Origin: Deltaproteobacteria bacterium
GTDB taxonomy: Bacteria > Desulfobacterota > Desulfuromonadia > Geobacterales > Geobacteraceae
DNA length: 64,000 bases
Assembly: GCA_021848385.1 (NCBI GenBank)
Contig: JAJZUQ010000001.1
Location: 62,001 to 126,000, forward strand
Reading direction: 5' to 3'
The translations under genes and the position numbers were made by a program. Of this stretch, positions 28,221-41,440 are shown piece after piece. Position 1 is the first letter of the stretch. Each line of letters begins with the position of its first letter. The notes under the pieces were generated by a model. That model was not told where the DNA came from, made no database searches, and saw only the letters and a list, made by a program, of their open reading frames with translations.

Positions 28221-28369
28221 GGGGAATCGCTCCCTTTCCCTGTTCCGGTCGTTCACCTCGCCGGGGGCGAATCTTCTTGAGTTTTTCGCCCTGTTCATAG
28301 TACGATTACACGGTTAATGTGAAAAATACCGGCGTTGAAGCATCCGGGCCGCTAAGAGTTTTGGAGAAA

Positions 28370-29443
28370 ATGATGGCTGAAGAATTCATACCCAAATGGA
28401 TCGCCTGGGAAACCACCCAGAAATGCAACCTGAAGTGTGTCCACTGCCGTTGCTCGTCGGAGCTGACCTCCTCCGAGGGGGACTTCACCACCGACGAGGG
28501 GAAAAAGCTCCTGAAGGAGATCGCAGATTTCTCCAAGCCGGTAATTGTCCTCTCTGGGGGCGAACCGCTCATGCGCAAGGATATCTTCGAACTGGCTGGC
28601 TACGGCACTTCCCTGGGGCTTCGTATGTGCATGGCCACCAACGGGGCGCTGGTTACCGACGAGATCTGCGAACAGATGAAGAAGGCGGAGATCAAGATGG
28701 TCTCCCTCTCCCTGGACGGCTCTTCGGCCTCCGTACATGACAACTTCCGCCAGTGCCCCGGTTCCTTCGACGGGGTGGTCCGGGCCGCCGAACTGTTCCG
28801 CAAGCATGGCCAGAAGTTCCTCATCAACTCCTCCTTTACCAAAAGAAACCAGCACGACATCGCCAATACCTTCAAGGTGGCCAAGTCCCTGGGGGCCACT
28901 GCCTGGTACATGTTCATGATCGTTCCCACCGGCCGTGGCGAGGAGATCATGAACGAACTCATCTCCAAGGAGGACTACGAGGAGATTCTTGACTGGCACT
29001 ACGAGCAGGAGAAGCTGGAAGACGATATCCTCATGCGCCCCACCTGCGCCCCCCACTACTACCGGATTGTCCCCCAGAAGGCCAAGGCCGAAGGGACGAA
29101 ATTCGAGCGCCGCTCCCTCACCTTCTCCACCGGCGGGGGCAAGGGATGTATCGCCGCCCAGACCATCTGCCTCATCGACTGCTTCGGCAACGTCAAGCCG
29201 TGCTCCTACTTCCACCGCACCGCGGGGAACGTGAAACAGACCCCCTTCCGGGAGATCTGGGAAAACTCGGAGATATTCCGTGATCTGCGGGATTTCAAGG
29301 CGTACAAGGGGAAGTGCGGCCAGTGCGAGTACCTGAACGTCTGCGGCGGCTGCCGGGCAAGGGCGGATGCGGTGACGGGGGACTATATGGAAGAAGAACC
29401 GTTCTGCAACTATGTGCCTATACGCCTTCAGAAGAAGGCGTAG
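28370..29443 (+). CDS. ahbD: AhbD-like radical SAM/SPASM haem b synthase
   Basis: The radical SAM core begins [19 protein letters not shown] with the CxxxCxxC cluster. [19 protein letters not shown] and [13 protein letters not shown] are characteristic of the AhbD/NirJ group. Further conserved parts are [20 protein letters not shown] and a C-terminal cysteine-rich SPASM-like region ([15 protein letters not shown]). AhbD decarboxylates iron-coproporphyrin III to haem b in the sirohaem-dependent route. Its neighbours hemE and, further on, hemH support a role in tetrapyrrole synthesis. GGAG precedes the paired ATGs at 28370 and 28373. The remaining doubt is whether it is AhbD or a close NirJ-like paralogue. 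Confidence 0.82.
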
Positions 29444-29564
29444 GGAACGCGATCTTCCGCCCATCTTGCCGCCGTCCTCGTCGCTTCTTTGTGCGGCGTG
29501 GCGCTGCCACGCCTCCGCAGGCGCTCCTGCGGGGGCGACAATCTGGACGAAATCTCACGTTCCC
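29443..29564. repeat. 122-bp palindromic element, copy 1
   Basis: Terminal arms GGGAACG and CGTTCCC flank conserved inner blocks (CGCCCATCT near the left, ATCTGGAC near the right). The centre is GGCGTGGC-GCT-GCCACGCC. It begins at the last base of the ahbD stop codon and fills the gap before hemE. Copies 2 and 3 are at 33460 and 60453. Confidence 0.8.
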
Positions 29565-29602
29565 GGTGTTGAACCGCTTTAAATTTCCAAGGAGGATTTT
29601 CA

Positions 29603-30625
29603 ATGAATACACGTTTTCTCGATGCCTGCTGGGGGAAGCCGGTTGACCGGACCCCGGTCTGGCTCATGCGCCAGGCGGGGCGCTATCTCCCTGACTACAT
29701 GCGGGTCCGCTCCAAGTGCACCTTTCTGGAACTCTGCAAGACCCCTGACCTGGCAGCCGAGGTGTCTATCCAGCCGGTGGACATCCTGGGCGTGGATGCC
29801 GCCATCCTCTTTTCCGACATCCTGACCCCGGTGGAACCGATGGGGATGAAGCTCGACTTCGTCCCCGGGCCGGTTTTCGAGCATCCGATCCGGACCATGG
29901 CCGATGTGGAGGCGCTCCGTATCCCCCAGATGGAGCAGGACGTTCCCTATGTCCTGGAAACCATCAAGATCCTCCGGCGGGAACTTGCCACCAAGGTGCC
30001 GCTCATCGGCTTCGGCGGCGCCCCCTTCACCCTTGCCTGCTACATGGTGGAAGGGAAGGGTTCCAAGGACTGGGCGACCATGAAGAAGATGATGTATGCC
30101 GCCCCGGACGTCTACGCCGCCCTCATGGAGAAGGTGACCATGATGGACATGGAGTACCTGAACGCCCAGATCAAGGCGGGAGCCCAGGCGATCCAGATTT
30201 TCGATACCTGGGGAGGGGTCCTCTCCCCTGCTGACTACGAGCGCTATGTCCTTCCCTACACCACCAGACTGATCAACGGCCTGAACCGGACCCAGGTACC
30301 GGTCATCCACTTCGTAAAGGGTGCGGCCACCATGCTCGACACCGTCCAGAAGGCGGGTGGCGATGTTATGGGGCTCGACTGGCACGTCGACCTCGGCAAG
30401 GCGAGGGACATTCTCGGGCCGAAGATGGGGGTGCAGGGGAACCTGGACCCGACCGTCCTCTATGCGCCGAATGATGTCATCGAACGGGAGGTGAAGCGGG
30501 TTCTGGATGAGAATGCCGGTCGCCCCGGCCACATCTTCAACCTGGGGCACGGCATCCTTCCCACGGTCCCGCCGGAGAATGCGAAATTCATGGTCGACTG
30601 CGTGCACCGACTGTCACAGAGGTAG
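29603..30625 (+). CDS. hemE: Uroporphyrinogen decarboxylase
   Basis: HemE converts uroporphyrinogen III to coproporphyrinogen III. The 340-residue protein carries the N-terminal signature PVWLMRQAGRYLPDYM, the FGGAPFTLACYMVEG motif, and the C-terminal GHGILPTVPPENA. AAGGAGG lies seven bases before the ATG. It lies between ahbD and a strong terminator, in a haem-synthesis neighbourhood. Confidence 0.97.
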   Translation: MNTRFLDACWGKPVDRTPVWLMRQAGRYLPDYMRVRSKCTFLELCKTPDLAAEVSIQPVDILGVDAAILFSDILTPVEPMGMKLDFVPGPVFEHPIRTMADVEALRIPQMEQDVPYVLETIKILRRELATKVPLIGFGGAPFTLACYMVEGKGSKDWATMKKMMYAAPDVYAALMEKVTMMDMEYLNAQIKAGAQAIQIFDTWGGVLSPADYERYVLPYTTRLINGLNRTQVPVIHFVKGAATMLDTVQKAGGDVMGLDWHVDLGKARDILGPKMGVQGNLDPTVLYAPNDVIEREVKRVLDENAGRPGHIFNLGHGILPTVPPENAKFMVDCVHRLSQR

Positions 30626-30680
30626 TCTGCCGAATAAAAGGAGGGTCTGAGCACCTCCCTCCCTACTGCTGACAAAGAGA

Positions 30681-30714
30681 AAGGCCCGCCAGTTTCCGGC
30701 GGGCCTTATTTTAC
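30681..30714 (+). terminator. Intrinsic terminator after hemE
   Basis: AAGGCCCGCC and GGCGGGCCTT form a perfect 10-bp stem with a 7-base loop, followed by a T-rich tail (ATTTTACTT). Confidence 0.85.
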
Positions 30715-31163
30715 TTCTTCGCTTCCCTTGTTTCAGGGTCATTACCGGCATTCAGTTACTGCCGGATCGATGCTTCTCTTATTTTCTTGTCACAGCCCGG
30801 TGGAGTATCTTCGATTTGCATCGCCCTCCTTTTCTGGCGGTCTGTTACAGGTAGCTACCTGTGTAAACTATAACAACGGAAATATGCATTACCAGTACTG
30901 TATAAAATTTTTTATCATGGTAGAATTAGACTGTTTGGTCTGAAAGCCGCGATCTGTTCGCGGCTTTTTTTTGCTTGGTCAGGTAACCGGTGACCGTGGA
31001 TGTGTCTAAGAAAGAGGATGGTACACCGACGCAGTTTAATTCGCCTGCTCTGTTCTGTACCTCATTAATAACTTGACTTCCCGGTGCCTCGGAAGCTATA
31101 GAATGCAGCATCCGGTAGATTTTCCCGCTTTTCCTGCGGTTTATTAATCCCCCAAGGAGGAAC
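30715..31163. other. Intergenic region with a palindrome and an orphan terminator
   Basis: No convincing gene lies in these 449 bases. ACAGGTAGCTACCTGT (30847-30862) is a perfect 16-bp palindrome, suitable as a dimeric regulator site. TATAAA (30900-30905) resembles a -10 box. A strong hairpin with U-tract at 30943-30972 lies about 60 bases beyond it with no gene upstream, so a short non-coding transcript is possible. A 71-codon frame (30728-30943) lacks a ribosome site and recognisable content. Confidence 0.45.
30943..30972 (+). terminator. Strong intrinsic terminator with no gene upstream
   Basis: AAAGCCGCGA, loop TCTGT, and TCGCGGCTTT are followed by five more T. The stem is perfect (10 bp). 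The nearest upstream gene, hemE, already has its own terminator 230 bases earlier. Confidence 0.8.
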
Positions 31164-32075
31164 ATGACGATGCGACTGCTTACCCGCTCCGATTTTGACG
31201 GTATCTGCTGTGCTGTGCTCCTGAAAGAGCTTGGTCTTATGGACGAGATGGTCTACGCCCACCCGAAGGACCTGCAGGACGGGAAGATTCCGGTGACGCA
31301 GGACGATATCCTTGCCAACGTTCCCTATGTGCCGGGGTGCGGTCTCTGGTTCGACCACCACTCCAGCGAACGGGAGCGGCTGAGCCTTCAGGGGAAATAC
31401 GAGGGGCGGAGCACCAACGCTCCGAGCGCCGCCCGGGTCATTTACGATTACTACGGTCCAGAGAAGCTCGCGCGTTTCGAGGAGATGCTCCGCTATGTGG
31501 ACAAGGTGGACTCGGCCCAACTGACCGAGGACGAAATCCTCAACCCCGCGGGATGGATTCTCCTCGGCTTCATCTGTGACCCCAGAACCGGCCTCGGCTA
31601 CCACAAAAACTACCGGATCAGCAACCTGGCATTCATGAACGACCTGGTAGAGCATATTCGCACCAGGAGTATCGACGAAATCCTTGCCCTTCCCGATACC
31701 CAGGAGCGGATTGCACTCTACCGGGAGAATGACCTGAAGGGACGGGCCTTTCTCAAGGAGCGTTCCCGCGCGGACGGGCCAGTGGTCATCACCGATGCCC
31801 GGGGTGCTGCAGAAATACCCCCATCCAACCGGTTCCTCATCTACTCCCTCTTCCCGGAGACCAACATTTCCATCCGCCTCATCGACGGCAGGGGGAAAGA
31901 GTTCGTCGCAATCTCCGTCGGCTACAGCATTCTCAACCGGACCGCCACGGTGGACGTCGGGTCGCTCATGCTCCGCTATGGCGGCGGCGGTCACGAGGTG
32001 GTCGGAACCTGCCAGGTGCCGTGCGACCGGGCGGACAACGTGCTCAATGAACTGGTAGCCGCCTGCAGGGGATAG
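31164..32075 (+). CDS. DHH-family phosphoesterase (exopolyphosphatase or nanoRNase-like)
   Basis: The 303-residue protein shows the DHH metal-site motifs: TRSDFDGICCAVLL at the start, a later Asp-rich segment (WFDHHSSE, the DHH motif), and the C-terminal DHHA1 glycine motif RYGGGGHEVVG. Relatives hydrolyse nanoRNA, pAp, cyclic dinucleotides or polyphosphate, and the sequence alone does not decide which. AAGGAGG lies directly upstream of two in-frame ATGs (31164 and 31170). It is followed by its own terminator, so it is probably a single-gene transcript. Confidence 0.85.
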   Translation: MTMRLLTRSDFDGICCAVLLKELGLMDEMVYAHPKDLQDGKIPVTQDDILANVPYVPGCGLWFDHHSSERERLSLQGKYEGRSTNAPSAARVIYDYYGPEKLARFEEMLRYVDKVDSAQLTEDEILNPAGWILLGFICDPRTGLGYHKNYRISNLAFMNDLVEHIRTRSIDEILALPDTQERIALYRENDLKGRAFLKERSRADGPVVITDARGAAEIPPSNRFLIYSLFPETNISIRLIDGRGKEFVAISVGYSILNRTATVDVGSLMLRYGGGGHEVVGTCQVPCDRADNVLNELVAACRG

Positions 32076-32106
32076 CGGGCGAATAACTGCAGATGCGTCA
32101 AGGATT

Positions 32107-32135
32107 GGCAGGGGAAACCCTGCCTTTTCTTTTTT
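32107..32135 (+). terminator. Intrinsic terminator after the DHH phosphoesterase
   Basis: GGCAGGG, loop GAAA and CCCTGCC are followed by TTTTCTTTTTT. The stable GNRA-type tetraloop and T-run make this a clear terminator. Confidence 0.88.
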
Positions 32136-32308
32136 CATCGATCGCCAGGCATAAAATTCCGGTTGCGCGGGACGTGAAGAGAGGGCATAGTAAACCTGCT
32201 TCGGGCTTTCCGCATACCGTCTAGGTGAAAGCAAAGAAAAAGTTTCCCGTCTGCACGGTGATTAAGTTCGAGATGTCGATTTCAGGATAGATGTCAGATG
32301 AGGTGCCC

Positions 32309-33262
32309 ATGTCCGCGAAAACCGCCGTTCTTCTCCTCCAGATGGGGGGACCCGATTCCCTTGATGCCGTCCAGCCGTTTCTCACCAATCTCTTCTGTGA
32401 CCGGGATATCATCAGAATCGGCCCGGCCTTCCTCCAGCCGCTCATCGCCCGGATCATCGCCCGGCGGCGCGCTCCGAAAGTAGAGCGGTACTACGAGCAG
32501 ATCGGTGGCAAGTCCCCCATCCGGGAGCTTACCGAGGCACAGGCGCGGGCGCTGGAAGAGCTGTTGGGGGAAGAGTACCGCTGTTTCGTGGCGATGCGTT
32601 ACTGGCGTCCCTCTACTATCGAGGCGCTGGCGGCCATCAAGAAAGAGGGAATCGAGCGCATCATCGCCCTCTCCCTCTATCCCCATTATTCACGGGCCAC
32701 CACCGGGTCGAGCTTTAACGAGCTGAAGCGGGTGCTGGGGGAAGCGGGTGTGCAGTTCCAGGTTTCCACCATCGACCGGTTCTACGACCATCCCCGCTAC
32801 ATCGACGCCCTTGAGGAAAAGGTACGGGAGGGACTCGGCCAGTTCCACCCCCTTGCCGACGTGGAGATTCTTTTTTCCGCCCATTCCCTCCCCCAGTCGT
32901 TCATCGACGATGGAGATCCCTATCTCGCCCATATCGAGGAGACGGTACGGCTTGTCATGGACCGGTTCGAGAACATCACCCATCACCTGGCCTTTCAGTC
33001 GCGGGCAGGGCCGGTCAAGTGGCTGGAGCCTTCCACCGAGGCGATGCTGGAGCATCTGGCGGCCCACGGCAGCAAGAACCTCCTGGTCGTCCCCCTCTCC
33101 TTCGTATCGGACCACATCGAGACCCTGTATGAAATCGATATCCAGTATGCCATGGAGGCGTTCAAGCTCGGCTACGCCAAGTTCTGGCGCAGTCCTTCCC
33201 TCAATACCTCGCCGGCGTTCATTGACTGCCTGGCGGACCTGGTGCGAGGGTGCGAAACGTGA
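32309..33262 (+). CDS. hemH: Ferrochelatase
   Basis: HemH inserts Fe2+ into a porphyrin. The 317-residue protein begins [22 protein letters not shown], has the conserved [14 protein letters not shown] segment and the active-site His in [18 protein letters not shown], and the late conserved [20 protein letters not shown] prefer the ATG at 32309, which has GAGGTG three bases upstream and matches homologue starts; an in-frame ATG exists at 32291. The substrate could be protoporphyrin IX or coproporphyrin III. Coexistence with AhbD is notable. Confidence 0.95.
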
Positions 33263-33459: not shown

Positions 33460-33581
33460 GTTCACGCTGAAAAACGCCCATCTGCGGCGTTCCGCTTCGG
33501 CCTGCGTCGCTGAGGCGTACCGATGTACGCCTCACTCCTCGGCCTCGCGCGCCTTGCATCTGGACATTTTTGAGCGTGAAC
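33460..33581. repeat. 122-bp palindromic element, copy 2
   Basis: Terminal arms GTTCACGCT and AGCGTGAAC are perfectly complementary. The centre is GAGGCGTAC-CGAT-GTACGCCTC, also perfect. CGCCCATCT and ATCTGGAC blocks are shared with copy 1 at 29443. Its arms differ in sequence from those of the other copies but remain complementary to each other. Confidence 0.85.
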
Positions 33582-33632
33582 AAAAATGTGGTTGTTGTCC
33601 AAAACCAAGAACCACATCAAGTCGGAGAACAT

Positions 33633-34451
33633 ATGGAAACAACGATTATAGATGGTATTGCCCTTTCTCTGGCGCGGCCGGTGGAGTTGCCGCTCAAGTG
33701 GGTCGGCCAGGAGGAGTTGCTGAAACAGCTCCTTGCTGCCTGGATGGTGATCGACGAGCGGGACATCCCCTTCAACCCCCGTCTCATCGGCAAGCCGGGA
33801 GTTGGGAAGACCACCCTCGCCTATGCCGCGGCCAAGCGGTTGGGGCGGCCGGTCTACCTCTTCCAGGCGACCATGGATACCCGCCCGGAAGATCTCATTA
33901 TCACGCCGGTCATCGGGCCGGACGGCAAGATCCAGTACGCCGCCTCGTCCCTCGTTTCCGCCATGCTCAAGGGGGGAGTGCTGATCCTCGACGAGGGGAA
34001 CCGGATGAGCGAGAAGGCGTGGGCCTCGCTGGCGCCGCTTCTCGACGATCGCCGCTACGTGGAGTCGATCATCACCGGCCTGCGGGTGCCGGCCCACGCC
34101 GATTTCCGCATCGTGGTCACCATGAACGAGGACTCCTCCACCTTCGAGGTGCCGGAATACATCCACTCCCGTCTTCAGCCCCAGATCTACATCGACTTCC
34201 CCGAGGCGGACGAGGAGTTGCAGATTCTCAAGGAGAACCTCCCCTTTGCCGGGAGCCGGGTCCTCCGCTACGTGGTTGATTTCCTCCAGCGGGCCCATGC
34301 CGCCGACGAGCTCTATTCGGTGCGGGACGGCATCAACATCGCCCGTTACGCCCTGAAGATGATGGAGGGGGTCGGCCAGGTGCCCGAGGAACTGCTGCCG
34401 CTGGCGGTGGAGAGGATCCTTGGCGAAGAGGCGCTACGGTATCTTAAATAG
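33633..34451 (+). CDS. MoxR-type AAA+ ATPase
   Basis: The 272-residue ATPase has Walker A IGKPGVGKTTLAYA near residue 52, Walker B GGVLILDEGNRM, the MoxR-characteristic sensor-1 region FRIVVTMNEDSS, and an arginine-finger stretch HSRLQPQIYIDFPEADEE. The start is the ATG at 33633, which has GGAGA four bases upstream; the frame runs back into the palindromic repeat. MoxR ATPases remodel or activate partner proteins, usually ones with VWA domains encoded next door. Here the next gene is a TraB-like protein and no VWA protein is in sight. Confidence 0.9.
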   Translation: METTIIDGIALSLARPVELPLKWVGQEELLKQLLAAWMVIDERDIPFNPRLIGKPGVGKTTLAYAAAKRLGRPVYLFQATMDTRPEDLIITPVIGPDGKIQYAASSLVSAMLKGGVLILDEGNRMSEKAWASLAPLLDDRRYVESIITGLRVPAHADFRIVVTMNEDSSTFEVPEYIHSRLQPQIYIDFPEADEELQILKENLPFAGSRVLRYVVDFLQRAHAADELYSVRDGINIARYALKMMEGVGQVPEELLPLAVERILGEEALRYLK

Positions 34452-34453
34452 CT

Positions 34454-34530
34454 CGGAAGATGGAAGCGCGGAAGATCGGAAGTAGTATCTGAAAAATTCC
34501 TTCCGCTCTTCCTTTCTTTCGCCCTTCCGC
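34454..34530. repeat. GGAAGAT-type dyad element between moxR-like gene and its partner
   Basis: The left arm is CGGAAGATGGAAGCGCGG and AAGATCGGAAG (34454-34482). The right arm, CTTCCGCTCTTCC and TTCGCCCTTCCGC (34500-34530), is an imperfect inverted copy. It lies just before the next ATG and leaves that gene without a visible Shine-Dalgarno sequence. Confidence 0.65.
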
Positions 34531-34542
34531 ACTGGGTTTCCT

Positions 34543-36534
34543 ATGCCCCATCGGCTGTATCTCGAACAATTCGGCAACGTCCATGCCCTTCCCGTCCTCC
34601 ATTACAAGATGGAGTTCGCCCACCTGGTGCGGCAGGCGGTGGAACTGGTGCAACCCGACTGCATAGCCATCGAGTTGCCACCTACCCTGGAAGCTCCCTT
34701 TCTGCGCGGGGTCCGGCGCCTGCCGGAAATCTCGGTCCTCACCTATGACGCGAACACCGCCACCCTTCTCAGGGGGAAGGTGGCCGAGGGGGGCTCCCAG
34801 AAAGTCTATCTCCTCATCGAGCCGGCCGACCCCCTGGTGGAAGCGGCACGGCAGGCGCTTGAACGTAATATCCCCCTTCATTTAATTGACATCGATCTGG
34901 ACGACTACCCCCTCCACGAAGAGCAGGTGCCTGATTCGTATGCCGTGCAGCGGATCGGCCTTGGCTCCTATTACCGGGAATTCGCGACAGCCTTTGCCCC
35001 TGTGGCGCCGGACCGGGAGGACCTGCGGCGGGAAAAGGGGATGGCCTGGCACCTGCAGCAGCTTTCCGCGAAGCACCAGCGAGTGCTCCTGGTCTGCGGC
35101 ATGTACCACCTCGGGAGGATCAAAGAGTTCTTCTCTGACCCCCAGGGGGAGCCCTTGGCAAGGGTTAAGCGGGAGAACGTCCGCCTCTTTAATCTCCACC
35201 CCGCATCCTGCCGGGAGATACTCGGCGAATTCCCGTTTGTCAACGCGGTATACGAACAGCGCCGGGGAGAGTTTCCCCCCGAACCGGCGGGGGAGGGTCC
35301 TTCCCTGCGCAAGCGGTTCCACGCCCTGGAACTGATCGCGGGTGGGAAGCGGGATATCCCGGAAGCGGAAGCGCTTACCCTCTCCATCGCCCGGAGCGTG
35401 AGGCTCGTGGGATGCCTTGGGGAAATGCCCGACCGGCAGCGGATCATCCTCCGCCTCTTCCTGGAGTCGGCCCGACACTACAAGCAGGAGACCGGCGAGC
35501 CGGTACGCGTATGGCAGAAGCGGGCCTTCTTCCGTTTCGCCCGCAATTGCGCCCTTCTTGATGGCCTGCTCCTCCCTGACCTCTACCATCTCCTCTCCGC
35601 GGCCCGCGGTTGCGTGGACGACAACTTCGCCCACGCCTTCTGTCGTCTCGCCACGTTCTATCCCTGGCAGAAAGAGGTAAGCGACCTCCCCACCATCAGT
35701 CTGGACCTTGCCGATCTCTGGCGGCAGAGCCGTCGCATCCGGTTCCGGCCCAAGGAGCGGCGGCACGGCAAGGGGCTTTCCCGGCTCGCCTTCCTCAACC
35801 GGAAACGGGAGAAGCATCCCGGCGAGTGGCTGAAAGGGTTCGACGATCCCTCCATCTGTTCCTATCCCCCCGAGGATCTAGTCATCGAGGATTATGGCCG
35901 CTTCCTGAAAAAGAAGGGTGCGAAACAGCTTTCGGAAGAGCAGTGCCGGGTGGAGCCGTTTACCGTTTCCATGCTGGATGGCATCGACATGCGGGAGACC
36001 CTGCGCAACATCCACGAGGGGCGCATCTACGTGCGGCAGCAGGAACGGGTGAAGGGGGGAGTGGGGAGCGTGGTGGTGATCTTCGACGAGGACCGGCGCG
36101 GCGAACGGTACCCCTACCTGATGACCTGGCTGGGGGAGCATGCCCAGGAATCGGACATGGCCTTTTACGCCACCCCTCCCGAGGACAACATCGTCGGTCC
36201 CGGCATCTCCCGCTGCGAGTACGGCGGTTTCGTCCTCGCCTACCCGCCGCGGCGAATGCTCGATGTCTGGCATACAGGCGACTACTCCTTCGCCCGAAGC
36301 AAGTCCGAGGTCCTGCTGCTGGCTGCCCTGGACTATTCCCTGGAAAAGCACGTGGTCTACGTGGCGGCCCGGCCGCCGCGGAGCTATTTCAAACAGCTGG
36401 CGGCCCGGTTCGGCAGGAAGATCGTCTATATCCCCCTGGGGTCGCTGTCGCCGGTGCGGCTCAAGCATCTGCGGGTGTTTCATGTGCTGGCAGGCCACGA
36501 CAAGCGGGGGATAGCAAGAGATTATGTTTGGTAA
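34543..36534 (+). CDS. Large protein with N-terminal TraB/TIKI-like domain, MoxR partner, function unknown
   Basis: This is a 663-residue soluble protein. The first 220 residues resemble the TraB/PrgY/TIKI fold: a Glu-containing strand QPDCIAIELPP near residue 45, and a His-containing strand RVLLVCGMYHLGRI near residue 185, the two signature positions of that superfamily. Residues 270-400 are mainly helical (for example IILRLFLESARHYKQE). The C-terminal 200 residues look like a separate alpha/beta domain (GVGSVVVIFDEDRRGERYPYL, EKHVVYVAARPPRSYF, FGRKIVYIPLGSLSP). No MIDAS motif or signal peptide is seen. The gene follows the MoxR ATPase after 91 bases and ends at a bidirectional terminator, so the pair is a self-contained unit. 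The TraB assignment is from motif resemblance only. Confidence 0.7.
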   Translation: MPHRLYLEQFGNVHALPVLHYKMEFAHLVRQAVELVQPDCIAIELPPTLEAPFLRGVRRLPEISVLTYDANTATLLRGKVAEGGSQKVYLLIEPADPLVEAARQALERNIPLHLIDIDLDDYPLHEEQVPDSYAVQRIGLGSYYREFATAFAPVAPDREDLRREKGMAWHLQQLSAKHQRVLLVCGMYHLGRIKEFFSDPQGEPLARVKRENVRLFNLHPASCREILGEFPFVNAVYEQRRGEFPPEPAGEGPSLRKRFHALELIAGGKRDIPEAEALTLSIARSVRLVGCLGEMPDRQRIILRLFLESARHYKQETGEPVRVWQKRAFFRFARNCALLDGLLLPDLYHLLSAARGCVDDNFAHAFCRLATFYPWQKEVSDLPTISLDLADLWRQSRRIRFRPKERRHGKGLSRLAFLNRKREKHPGEWLKGFDDPSICSYPPEDLVIEDYGRFLKKKGAKQLSEEQCRVEPFTVSMLDGIDMRETLRNIHEGRIYVRQQERVKGGVGSVVVIFDEDRRGERYPYLMTWLGEHAQESDMAFYATPPEDNIVGPGISRCEYGGFVLAYPPRRMLDVWHTGDYSFARSKSEVLLLAALDYSLEKHVVYVAARPPRSYFKQLAARFGRKIVYIPLGSLSPVRLKHLRVFHVLAGHDKRGIARDYVW

Positions 36535-36541
36535 GGGGCGC

Positions 36542-36575
36542 AAAAAGGCCGGGCTCACAAAAGCCCGGCCTTTTT
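36542..36575. terminator. Bidirectional intrinsic terminator
   Basis: AAAAAGGCCGGGCT and AGCCCGGCCTTTTT form a perfect 14-bp stem around a 6-base loop. It serves both the TraB-like gene (plus) and the lipase fragment (minus). Confidence 0.92.
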
Positions 36576-36637: not shown

Positions 36638-37402
36638 CTACTGACTGAACGTCTCCAGCCACTGCCAACCGTCGAAGAGAATCGGAAAGGCCGCGGACAG
36701 ATGGGTAGTCATGACCGGATCGCTTGACACGGGGATGGTGAGAGTTTCCCGTACAAGCGTGACATACCTCTTTGCTCCGGCAGTGCTGAAACTGTTGAAT
36801 GCGACCTGGGAATTGGCAAAGGGAACAAGCTCATCATTGCCGTGATGCACCATGCGTATTGGCACGGAGGGGGTCCAGCCCCGATAGGAATCGTTATCCC
36901 GCAGAAAGTTGACGACCGGGCTTGTGCTGTCGGCAAGCTGTGCCAAAAACTGGCTGGTCAGCGTGCTCTTGGGAACGATCAGCTGAGTCGGGCTAAAGGA
37001 CATCCCCATCGCTTCGCTGATCTTATCCGAGGGAGAGTTTCCGTCAAACAGCGGCGGGACCGCGCCGGCAAATGCCGGCAGCATGGTTGAGGCAGGGGCG
37101 AAAAGGGCCGTCTGGCCGCTGTACACATAATTGTAGGAGTTGAGCACAAAGGGGAGGAAGTAGGGTGCCTTGGAAGTTGTGTCTGCCAGCATCACCCCGC
37201 GCATCACGCCCGAGAGGTCATGGGGGCCGGCGAGAGGCGCCGAGGCGGTCACGGTGAACTCGGCCGAGTGGTTGATCTGAATCTCCCGCGTTGCTGCCAT
37301 GGTCACATAGCCACCTTCGGAGTACCCCATCAGGAAGAGCTGGTTGTTCCAGGTGCAGGGTGAGGTGCTGCCGGTGATGATCGTCCTGCTTGCCCGGAGC
37401 AT
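36638..37402 (-). pseudogene. 5'-truncated alpha/beta-hydrolase (lipase-like) fragment
   Basis: The visible 254 residues correspond to the C-terminal part of a secreted lipase-type hydrolase. The nucleophile elbow GYSEGGY lies near residue 27, the late Asp region is at VPIRMVHHGNDELVPF, and a possible His is in TTHLSAAF. Homologous sequence begins only at MLRASRTI. The signal peptide and roughly the first third that a secreted lipase needs are missing, and there is no ribosome site. The codons upstream of 37402 belong to an unrelated sequence that reads well on the other strand. The gene is therefore a remnant broken at a junction near 37403. Confidence 0.75.
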
Positions 37403-40660: not shown

Positions 40661-41440
40661 ATATGAGTGAACCCGCTTCTGGCCAAGATGGGAGTGAGCG
40701 GTGTCAACATGGAAGGGAAAGATGTGCGCTTTGGTCTGGCCGGTAGCAGCCTTTTTACCGTAGCAACCACTGGCACCTCGTGCGGTGCGGTCAATACCAT
40801 GCTCGACTCCCTGACCCCAATCGGCGGCATGATTCCACTCAGTCTTATTTTGACCGGCGAGGTGGTCTTTGGCGGAGTCGGCTCGGGTCTGTATACCATG
40901 CTGGCTTTTGCAATCATTGCTGTTTTTGTCTCGGGTCTCATGATCGGGCGAACGCCGGAGTACTTAGGTAAGAAAATTGAAGTTGCCGAGATGTGGCTGT
41001 CGATCCTGGTCATATTGACTGCCGGCGTCATGGTGCTGGTTCTGTCAGGCATCGCCATGATTACTCCTTCCGCCGTTGCCTCCATGGCTAATCCGGGTGC
41101 CCACGGGCTGTCGGAGGTGCTGTATGCAATGGCCTCAATGGCCAACAACAACGGCAGCGCCTTTGCCGGTCTGAATGCCAACGTCAATTTCTATAACTTG
41201 CTCGGCTCACTGGCTATGCTGTTGGGGAGATATGTTCCTGCAATTGCAGTGCTTGCCATGGCTGGCTCCCTTGCGGAGAAAAAATATATCCCCCCTAGCC
41301 TGGGTACCTTGCCGACTGACAGGGCTCCCTTCGTCGTCTGGCTGGTACTGGTGATTGTCATTATCGGAGCATTGACGTTCTTCCCTGCTTTGGCCCTGGG
41401 ACCGATAGTGGAACATCTGACCATGCTGGGAGGAAACTAA
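40657..41440 (+). pseudogene. kdpA: kdpA with first half deleted (potassium-transporting ATPase subunit A)
   Basis: KdpA is normally about 560 residues with four pore repeats. Here only the last 257 residues remain, from [22 protein letters not shown] through [29 protein letters not shown] and the end [15 protein letters not shown]. The coupled ATG at 40657 (MNMSE) is out of frame with this remnant. The only in-frame start is a GTG at 40667 inside the remnant. This fits an internal deletion of roughly 900 bases that joins the first codons to the second half with a frameshift. Two of the four pore repeats are lost, so potassium transport by Kdp should fail. A clone or assembly error is the main alternative. 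Confidence 0.85.

Follow-up and report, generated by a model that had tools for sequence, protein, structure and literature searches.

A conserved two-gene MoxR unit in Geobacterales pairs an AAA+ ATPase with a TraB/TIKI-fold protein that carries a candidate degenerate VWA-like domain

We examined two adjacent genes in a 64,000-nucleotide stretch of a Deltaproteobacteria genome (contig JAJZUQ010000001.1, positions 62,001 to 126,000; hereafter the window). The first encodes a MoxR-type AAA+ ATPase and the second a larger protein, here called the partner (Table 1). The pair is a real and conserved two-gene MoxR unit, retained together far beyond chance, and the N-terminal domain of the partner has the fold of the TraB/TIKI (EreA/ChaN) superfamily. 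To our knowledge, MoxR proteins are widespread, with targets known in only a few systems (NorQD, CbbQO, RavA–ViaA, and the chelatases). By analogy with characterized pairs, we give an even chance to the reading that the two genes form a stand-alone MoxR remodelling system, in which a TraB-type domain is joined to a divergent VWA-like domain.

The distribution of the two genes carries the first part of this finding. Among 58 Geobacterales genomes, 49 hold both genes and seven hold neither (G006, G042, G046, G048, G049, G050, and G055). Of the remaining two, G007 carries only the partner and G020 (78% complete) only the MoxR gene. This phylogenetic profile, which a preliminary description of the locus had called for, indicates co-inheritance (Fisher p 2e-7 across the 58 genomes, kinship ignored). 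Joint loss probably occurred more than once, because the absences are spread over several genera. The full-length partner family is present in 50 of the 58 genomes and is near-universal, single copy, and strongly conserved in the order; among the named relatives scanned, the closest is Geobacter sp. AOG1, whose partner is 97% identical. Across the genome collection, 73 of 80 named loci carry both genes, on the same strand in every case. Spacing within these 73 loci is tight: 47 pairs overlap or lie 20 bp or less apart, 64 fall within 300 bp, and nine are separated by 1–8.7 kb. Some genomes have the genes on separate contigs (e.g., G066, G080, and G045) yet possess both. Separation in relatives, which the preliminary description took as a sign against the pair, is therefore found in a minority of genomes; as split loci retain both genes in the same genome, the functional link stands. 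Beyond Geobacterales, the partner family extends to other Desulfobacterota, where a MoxR gene is adjacent in 22 of 27 loci, and a Neochlamydia (Chlamydiota) plasmid carries the pair as well. The phylum sample comprised one genome per species, and frequencies are thus per species rather than per strain. Neighbor clustering over the Geobacterales loci and more distant genomes revealed no further gene that accompanies the pair from group to group, in keeping with the compact two-gene system first proposed.

Two stray relatives of the partner were recorded. G007, with a full partner and no MoxR gene, contains a second fragment (G007:C239:30423-30590) that matches only partner residues 608–663 (77%). 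The sole relative on a viral contig is a 44% identical partner in IMG/VR (L201), which may be a mis-assigned bacterial contig; phage records contain none.

The identity of the ATPase, proposed at the outset from its sequence, is secure. It matches PF07728 (AAA_5; E 1e-20, 74 bits) and PF07726 (AAA_3; 29.5 bits), both above cut-off, and its intact Walker A and Walker B motifs are conserved in all relatives examined. The solved structures nearest to it by sequence are midasin, followed by NorQ and CbbQ. Within Geobacterales, the protein is 83–99% identical. Its identity is ~18% to the MoxR proteins of DUF5682 systems and 21% to those of CoxE-type systems. In a small tree with incomplete sampling of named subfamilies, it forms a deep clade of its own, separate from the YehL lineage.

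Three independent lines agree on the TraB/TIKI fold of the partner N-terminal domain. The family profile retrieves TraB proteins of ~395–470 amino acids (E 1e-3 to 5e-6), one of which is a PF01963 (TraB_PrgY_gumN) protein at E 2e-33. Profile–profile alignment with hhalign matches the domain to TraB over residues 15–205 (E 3.7e-7) and to DUF5682 over residues 13–197 only (E 5.3e-9). The AlphaFold2 (AF2) model has a predicted local distance difference test (pLDDT) score mostly above 90; its best PDB chain is a TraB family protein of Tetrahymena complex IV (8b6h_DQ, Z 12.2), with ChaN (Z 8.6) and then HopBA1, PMT, EreC, and RRSP among the further matches. Most of these matched proteins have been named as members of the TIKI superfamily (PMC6254334). 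Direct sequence homologues of the partner are absent from the PDB, and Pfam matches to Mor and other families were sub-threshold and dismissed as chance. The preliminary description had suggested a TraB/TIKI relationship from a Glu strand (IAIELPP, residues 41–47) and a His strand (CGMYHLGRI, residues 185–193); both motifs and both open reading frames (ORFs) are where it placed them, and structure prediction with fold searching bears out the assignment.

Residues H20, E44, and H189 are near-invariant across the family, including its distant members, and the domain shares these His/Glu/His positions as well as its fold with the TraB/PrgY/GumN (PF01963), TIKI, and EreA/ChaN superfamily. It differs from that superfamily in having no transmembrane part, in reading PxLH rather than GTAH (P17 replaces the Gly of the first GxxH motif), in being fused to other domains, and in being paired with a MoxR protein. 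Active peptidases such as RRSP carry a set of two His and two Glu residues, with one Glu at position −2 relative to the first His (PMC6254334). This set is incomplete in the partner, where V18 occupies the position; the extra Glu is likewise missing from TraB itself (GTAH). Judged from these residues, catalysis by the domain is possible, with catalytic positions that only partly coincide with those of active TIKI peptidases.

The homology to DUF5682 places the pair in a wider context. DUF5682 (PF18934) scores 16.2 bits against the window partner, below its gathering cut-off of 26 bits; it weakly matches 19 of 28 close relatives, and several distant members pass, in the N-terminal part only. 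No match to DUF5682 was obtained for the partner C-terminal part with hhalign, and the protein beyond its N-terminal part is unrelated to DUF5682 by sequence. In Escherichia coli, DUF5682/YehM stands beside a MoxR protein in the operon yehL-yehM-yehP-yehQ. The other annotated DUF5682 examples considered likewise have an adjacent MoxR gene. Most also include a VWA gene, although one lists none, and genes for SWIM, DUF5691, or DUF4132 proteins are frequent companions. Since DUF5682 genes adjoin MoxR genes, the MoxR–TraB association is itself broader than this pair, and the shared N-terminal homology links DUF5682/YehM, an E. coli family, to the TraB/TIKI superfamily. The two-gene MoxR and TraB-domain system is apparently undescribed: literature searches returned no paper on DUF5682, none joining MoxR with TIKI, and no published description of a MoxR and TraB-domain pair, while the two papers containing both MoxR and TraB, going by titles and abstracts, only list unrelated genes.

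A MoxR gene beside a protein whose N-terminal domain is TraB-like and homologous to that of DUF5682 could also be what is left of a YehLMPQ/DUF5682 operon after loss of its VWA and SWIM genes. We regard this origin as extremely improbable. The tree and the ~18% identity place the MoxR protein in another lineage, the homology is confined to the first ~200 partner residues, and the separate VWA, SWIM, DUF5691, and DUF4132 genes of the YehLMPQ type are absent. Moreover, G046, a Geobacterales genome without the pair, has a separate set of its own (L170), with a true DUF5682 gene and a CoxE-type VWA gene close by.

The C-terminal domain is the most conserved part of the partner across the phylum, including its tail, and conservation is very high in residues 515–538 (acidic/His) and in GPGIxRCxYGGF. 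A VWA domain was sought here because DGIDMRETLR...VVVIFDED resembled the segment that precedes the VWA domain in YehP/CoxE-type proteins. A pattern of D...T[LIM]R, 22–34 residues, a hydrophobic strand, and D occurs in 97 of 123 family ORFs versus 18 of ~2,700 other ORFs. On inspection, all 18 are VWA_CoxE proteins, and in most of them the metal ion-dependent adhesion site (MIDAS) resembles DVSRS or DVSSS. The likeness to VWA_CoxE (PF05762) consists of a DxxxT[LIM]R segment followed, ~33–35 residues on, by a strand that ends in Asp. Fold comparison points weakly in the same direction: PDB matches of the isolated C-terminal model (Z 2.0–2.5, model 117–261) include the CMG2 VWA domain and TFIIH p34/Tfb4, which we take to be VWA-like, and a viral library search placed four VWA-named proteins among the top 50, the top rows being otherwise unrelated. 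All told, VWA ancestry of the domain is slightly favored.

Several results weigh against such an ancestry and the reading built on it. The pattern was drawn up after the sequences had been seen, and many background ORFs in the comparison are spurious; we therefore treat it as a strong lead rather than a test. As noticed from the outset, no MIDAS DxSxS is visible: the DxSxS...T...D set that VWA_CoxE proteins carry is absent from the partner, FDEDR occupies the place, and the MIDAS residues are not conserved. Pfam returned no VWA match for the C-terminal part even at E 10, and neither a PDB sequence match nor a Pfam family was found for the domain. Comparison with VWA profiles by hhalign was not significant (E 0.02–0.07, with 2–4 of 60 column shuffles reaching the score), global scores (-glob) were no better than shuffles, and alignments to YehP, larger VWA sets, and DUF5682 were not significant either. 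The model of the C-terminal domain is of middling quality (pLDDT 64, predicted template modeling score 0.64, residues 534–559 below 50), its best Z of 3.3 is to an unrelated enzyme, and the helix that normally lies between strands 1 and 2 of VWA domains is not predicted. VIA and Foldseek gave no clear fold for this model, and an absent match does not imply a new fold. Binding of the MoxR protein to this partner is itself a prediction by analogy with other pairs.

Possibly, though we find it doubtful, the C-terminal domain is a separate non-VWA domain. It might then be an enzyme whose active site is the E/H/E/D cluster GEHxQESDMAF, and the MoxR protein would act, without a VWA adaptor, on a two-domain protein made of a TraB part and an effector. 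Conservation of the acidic/His stretch and of GPGIxRCxYGGF beyond what a scaffold usually needs would suit such a domain, as would the lack of a significant VWA match by Pfam, profile–profile, or fold comparison; the DxxxTLR motif and its spacing to the strand Asp argue the other way, as does the recurrence of VWA domains in the weak fold matches from both libraries. This alternative is close to the preliminary description, which had a TraB/TIKI-like protein taking the place of a VWA protein. That formulation is not established and could be mistaken: the absence of both a DxSxS motif and a VWA Pfam match speaks for it, the DxxxTLR motif and the weak VWA fold matches against it. Its suggestion to look for VWA genes near the pair in relatives yielded no conserved VWA or SWIM neighbor, and a VWA-like domain may instead lie in the partner itself.

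A VWA protein encoded elsewhere in the genome could also serve the pair in trans, and roughly half of the relatives do have VWA_CoxE-like genes. The one in the genome studied here, however, lies directly downstream of a separate, different MoxR gene (C121, L255), forming a classical MoxR–VWA pair, and many pair-bearing genomes gave no VWA_CoxE match in a search confined to that VWA family. We consider service in trans unlikely.

For a divergent VWA-like domain within the partner, NorQ and NorD offer a parallel. NorD consists of an N-terminal domain, a linker, and a C-terminal VWA domain, with a finger (residues 403–448) just before the VWA core (PMC13036017) that enters the NorQ pore (PMC13036017, PMC9976466). 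The last two NorD residues are needed for NorQ binding (PMC13036017), while NorD MIDAS mutants still bind NorQ (PMC9976466). In the model put forward for this complex, the NorQ ring twists the linker that joins the two NorD domains and also stretches it (PMC13036017, PMC9976466). The present pair resembles both NorQ/NorD and CbbQ/CbbO in having a short MoxR protein (~270 amino acids) next to one large partner and in the order N-terminal domain, linker, C-terminal domain; the partner also has a conserved C-terminal tail. The pair differs from both in its TraB/TIKI N-terminal domain, its missing MIDAS, and a C-terminal domain that is only a candidate VWA. The gene order MoxR–DUF5682–VWA of the YehLMPQ type parallels the domain order of the partner.

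On this analogy, the MoxR protein would form an AAA+ ring, and the C-terminal domain would be a divergent VWA-like domain that lost its MIDAS and kept the segment preceding the VWA core, which inserts into the pore in NorD. The ring could grip this domain and shift it relative to the TraB-like domain; ATP-driven motion would then twist or stretch the linker and remodel the TraB-like domain or its cargo. VWA ancestry, ring formation, pore insertion, and remodelling of the TraB domain are all steps that we infer. A narrower version is offered tentatively: an undescribed deep MoxR subfamily and its single fused partner may together act as a self-contained switch that uses ATP to control a TIKI-family domain, with the MIDAS lost because the TraB/TIKI-fold target is covalently attached.

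As to its biological role, MoxR systems with effectors have been described as conflict systems (PMC7159879), and a TraB/TIKI hydrolase could be such an effector. Defense is nevertheless very unlikely given the near-universal, vertical-looking retention of a strongly conserved single copy in Geobacterales and the absence from phage records, with one viral contig found. PADLOC also gave no match for the partner, and the variable effectors typical of conflict systems are missing. A housekeeping role in maturation or quality control is more likely. With a single partner that bears a recognizable TraB/TIKI domain, and with its near-universal presence in Geobacterales, this minimal pair offers a tractable model for MoxR function. 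If the C-terminal domain is indeed a MIDAS-less VWA domain, the ring-gripping role of VWA partners would be separable from target binding.

Table 1. Positions of the pair, its domains and motifs, and the flanking elements (window coordinates)
Feature	Position	Strand	Basis or remark
Pair	33633-36534	+	MoxR gene then partner gene; ORF reading
MoxR-type AAA+ ATPase, 272 aa	33633..34451 (ATG 33633, stop TAG 34449-34451)	+	PF07728
Walker A GKPGVGKT	33789..33812	+	Walker B LILDEGN further downstream
Partner protein, 663 aa	34543..36534	+	ORF; family across Geobacterales
Partner N-terminal TraB/TIKI (EreA/ChaN-like) domain, residues ~8-240	34564..35262	+	AF2 model, fold matches, hhalign
H20, first His (PxLH; TraB equivalent GTAH)	34600..34602	+	Invariant
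E44, Glu of IAIELP	34672..34674	+	Invariant; aligned to TraB VELD and DUF5682 IEGP
H189, second His (GMxH)	35107..35109	+	Invariant
Partner helical middle, residues 243-385	35269..35697	+	AF2 secondary structure; no family match
Low-confidence stretch, possible linker, residues 400-442	35740..35868	+	AF2 pLDDT ~42-57
Partner C-terminal alpha/beta domain, residues 443-663; candidate degenerate VWA-like, no MIDAS	35869..36531	+	
DMRETLR (residues 482-488), DxxxTLR motif preceding the VWA domain in CoxE/YehP-type proteins	35986..36006	+	
Strand VVVIFDED (residues 510-517), place of VWA strand 1 and MIDAS; DxSxS absent	36070..36093	+	Sequence; model secondary structure
TWLGEHAQESDMAFY (residues 528-542), most conserved acidic/His cluster of the family	36124..36168	+	Near-invariant over phylum and Neochlamydia
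14-bp perfect hairpin with A/T flanks, probable intrinsic terminator	36542..36575	+	Sequence
Imperfect palindrome, dispersed repeat outside the system	33460..33582		Repeat search, folding

The preliminary description had also bounded the pair by a palindrome on the left and a terminator on the right. The right-hand perfect hairpin is present in the sequence, although a generic terminator scan, which requires T's beyond the stem, did not list it. The left palindrome (~123 bp) folds well (z −5) and is gapped and imperfect. It belongs to a repeat family with at least five copies in the same genome and about ten in near relatives; being a dispersed repeat, it is no boundary of the pair and was ruled out as a regulatory element.

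Upstream of the pair, positions 28319-33262 hold a run of genes that appear haem-related by sequence, namely radical SAM/SPASM, hemE-like, DHH-like (no Pfam match), and hemH-like genes. A hemH-like gene precedes the pair in 25 of the 80 loci. Because hemH did not show up in the set of neighbor families conserved in more distant genomes, a ferrochelatase link was treated as local synteny, and a weak ferrochelatase fold row (Z 2.3) was not used. Farther downstream, KdpA (40667-41440) looks 5'-truncated: it covers only profile positions 301–548 of 548, lies directly upstream of kdpB, and leaves no room for the missing part after the preceding gene. An ORF at 36638-37402 on the minus strand weakly matches part of a secretory lipase family and has the appearance of either a remnant or a short relative.

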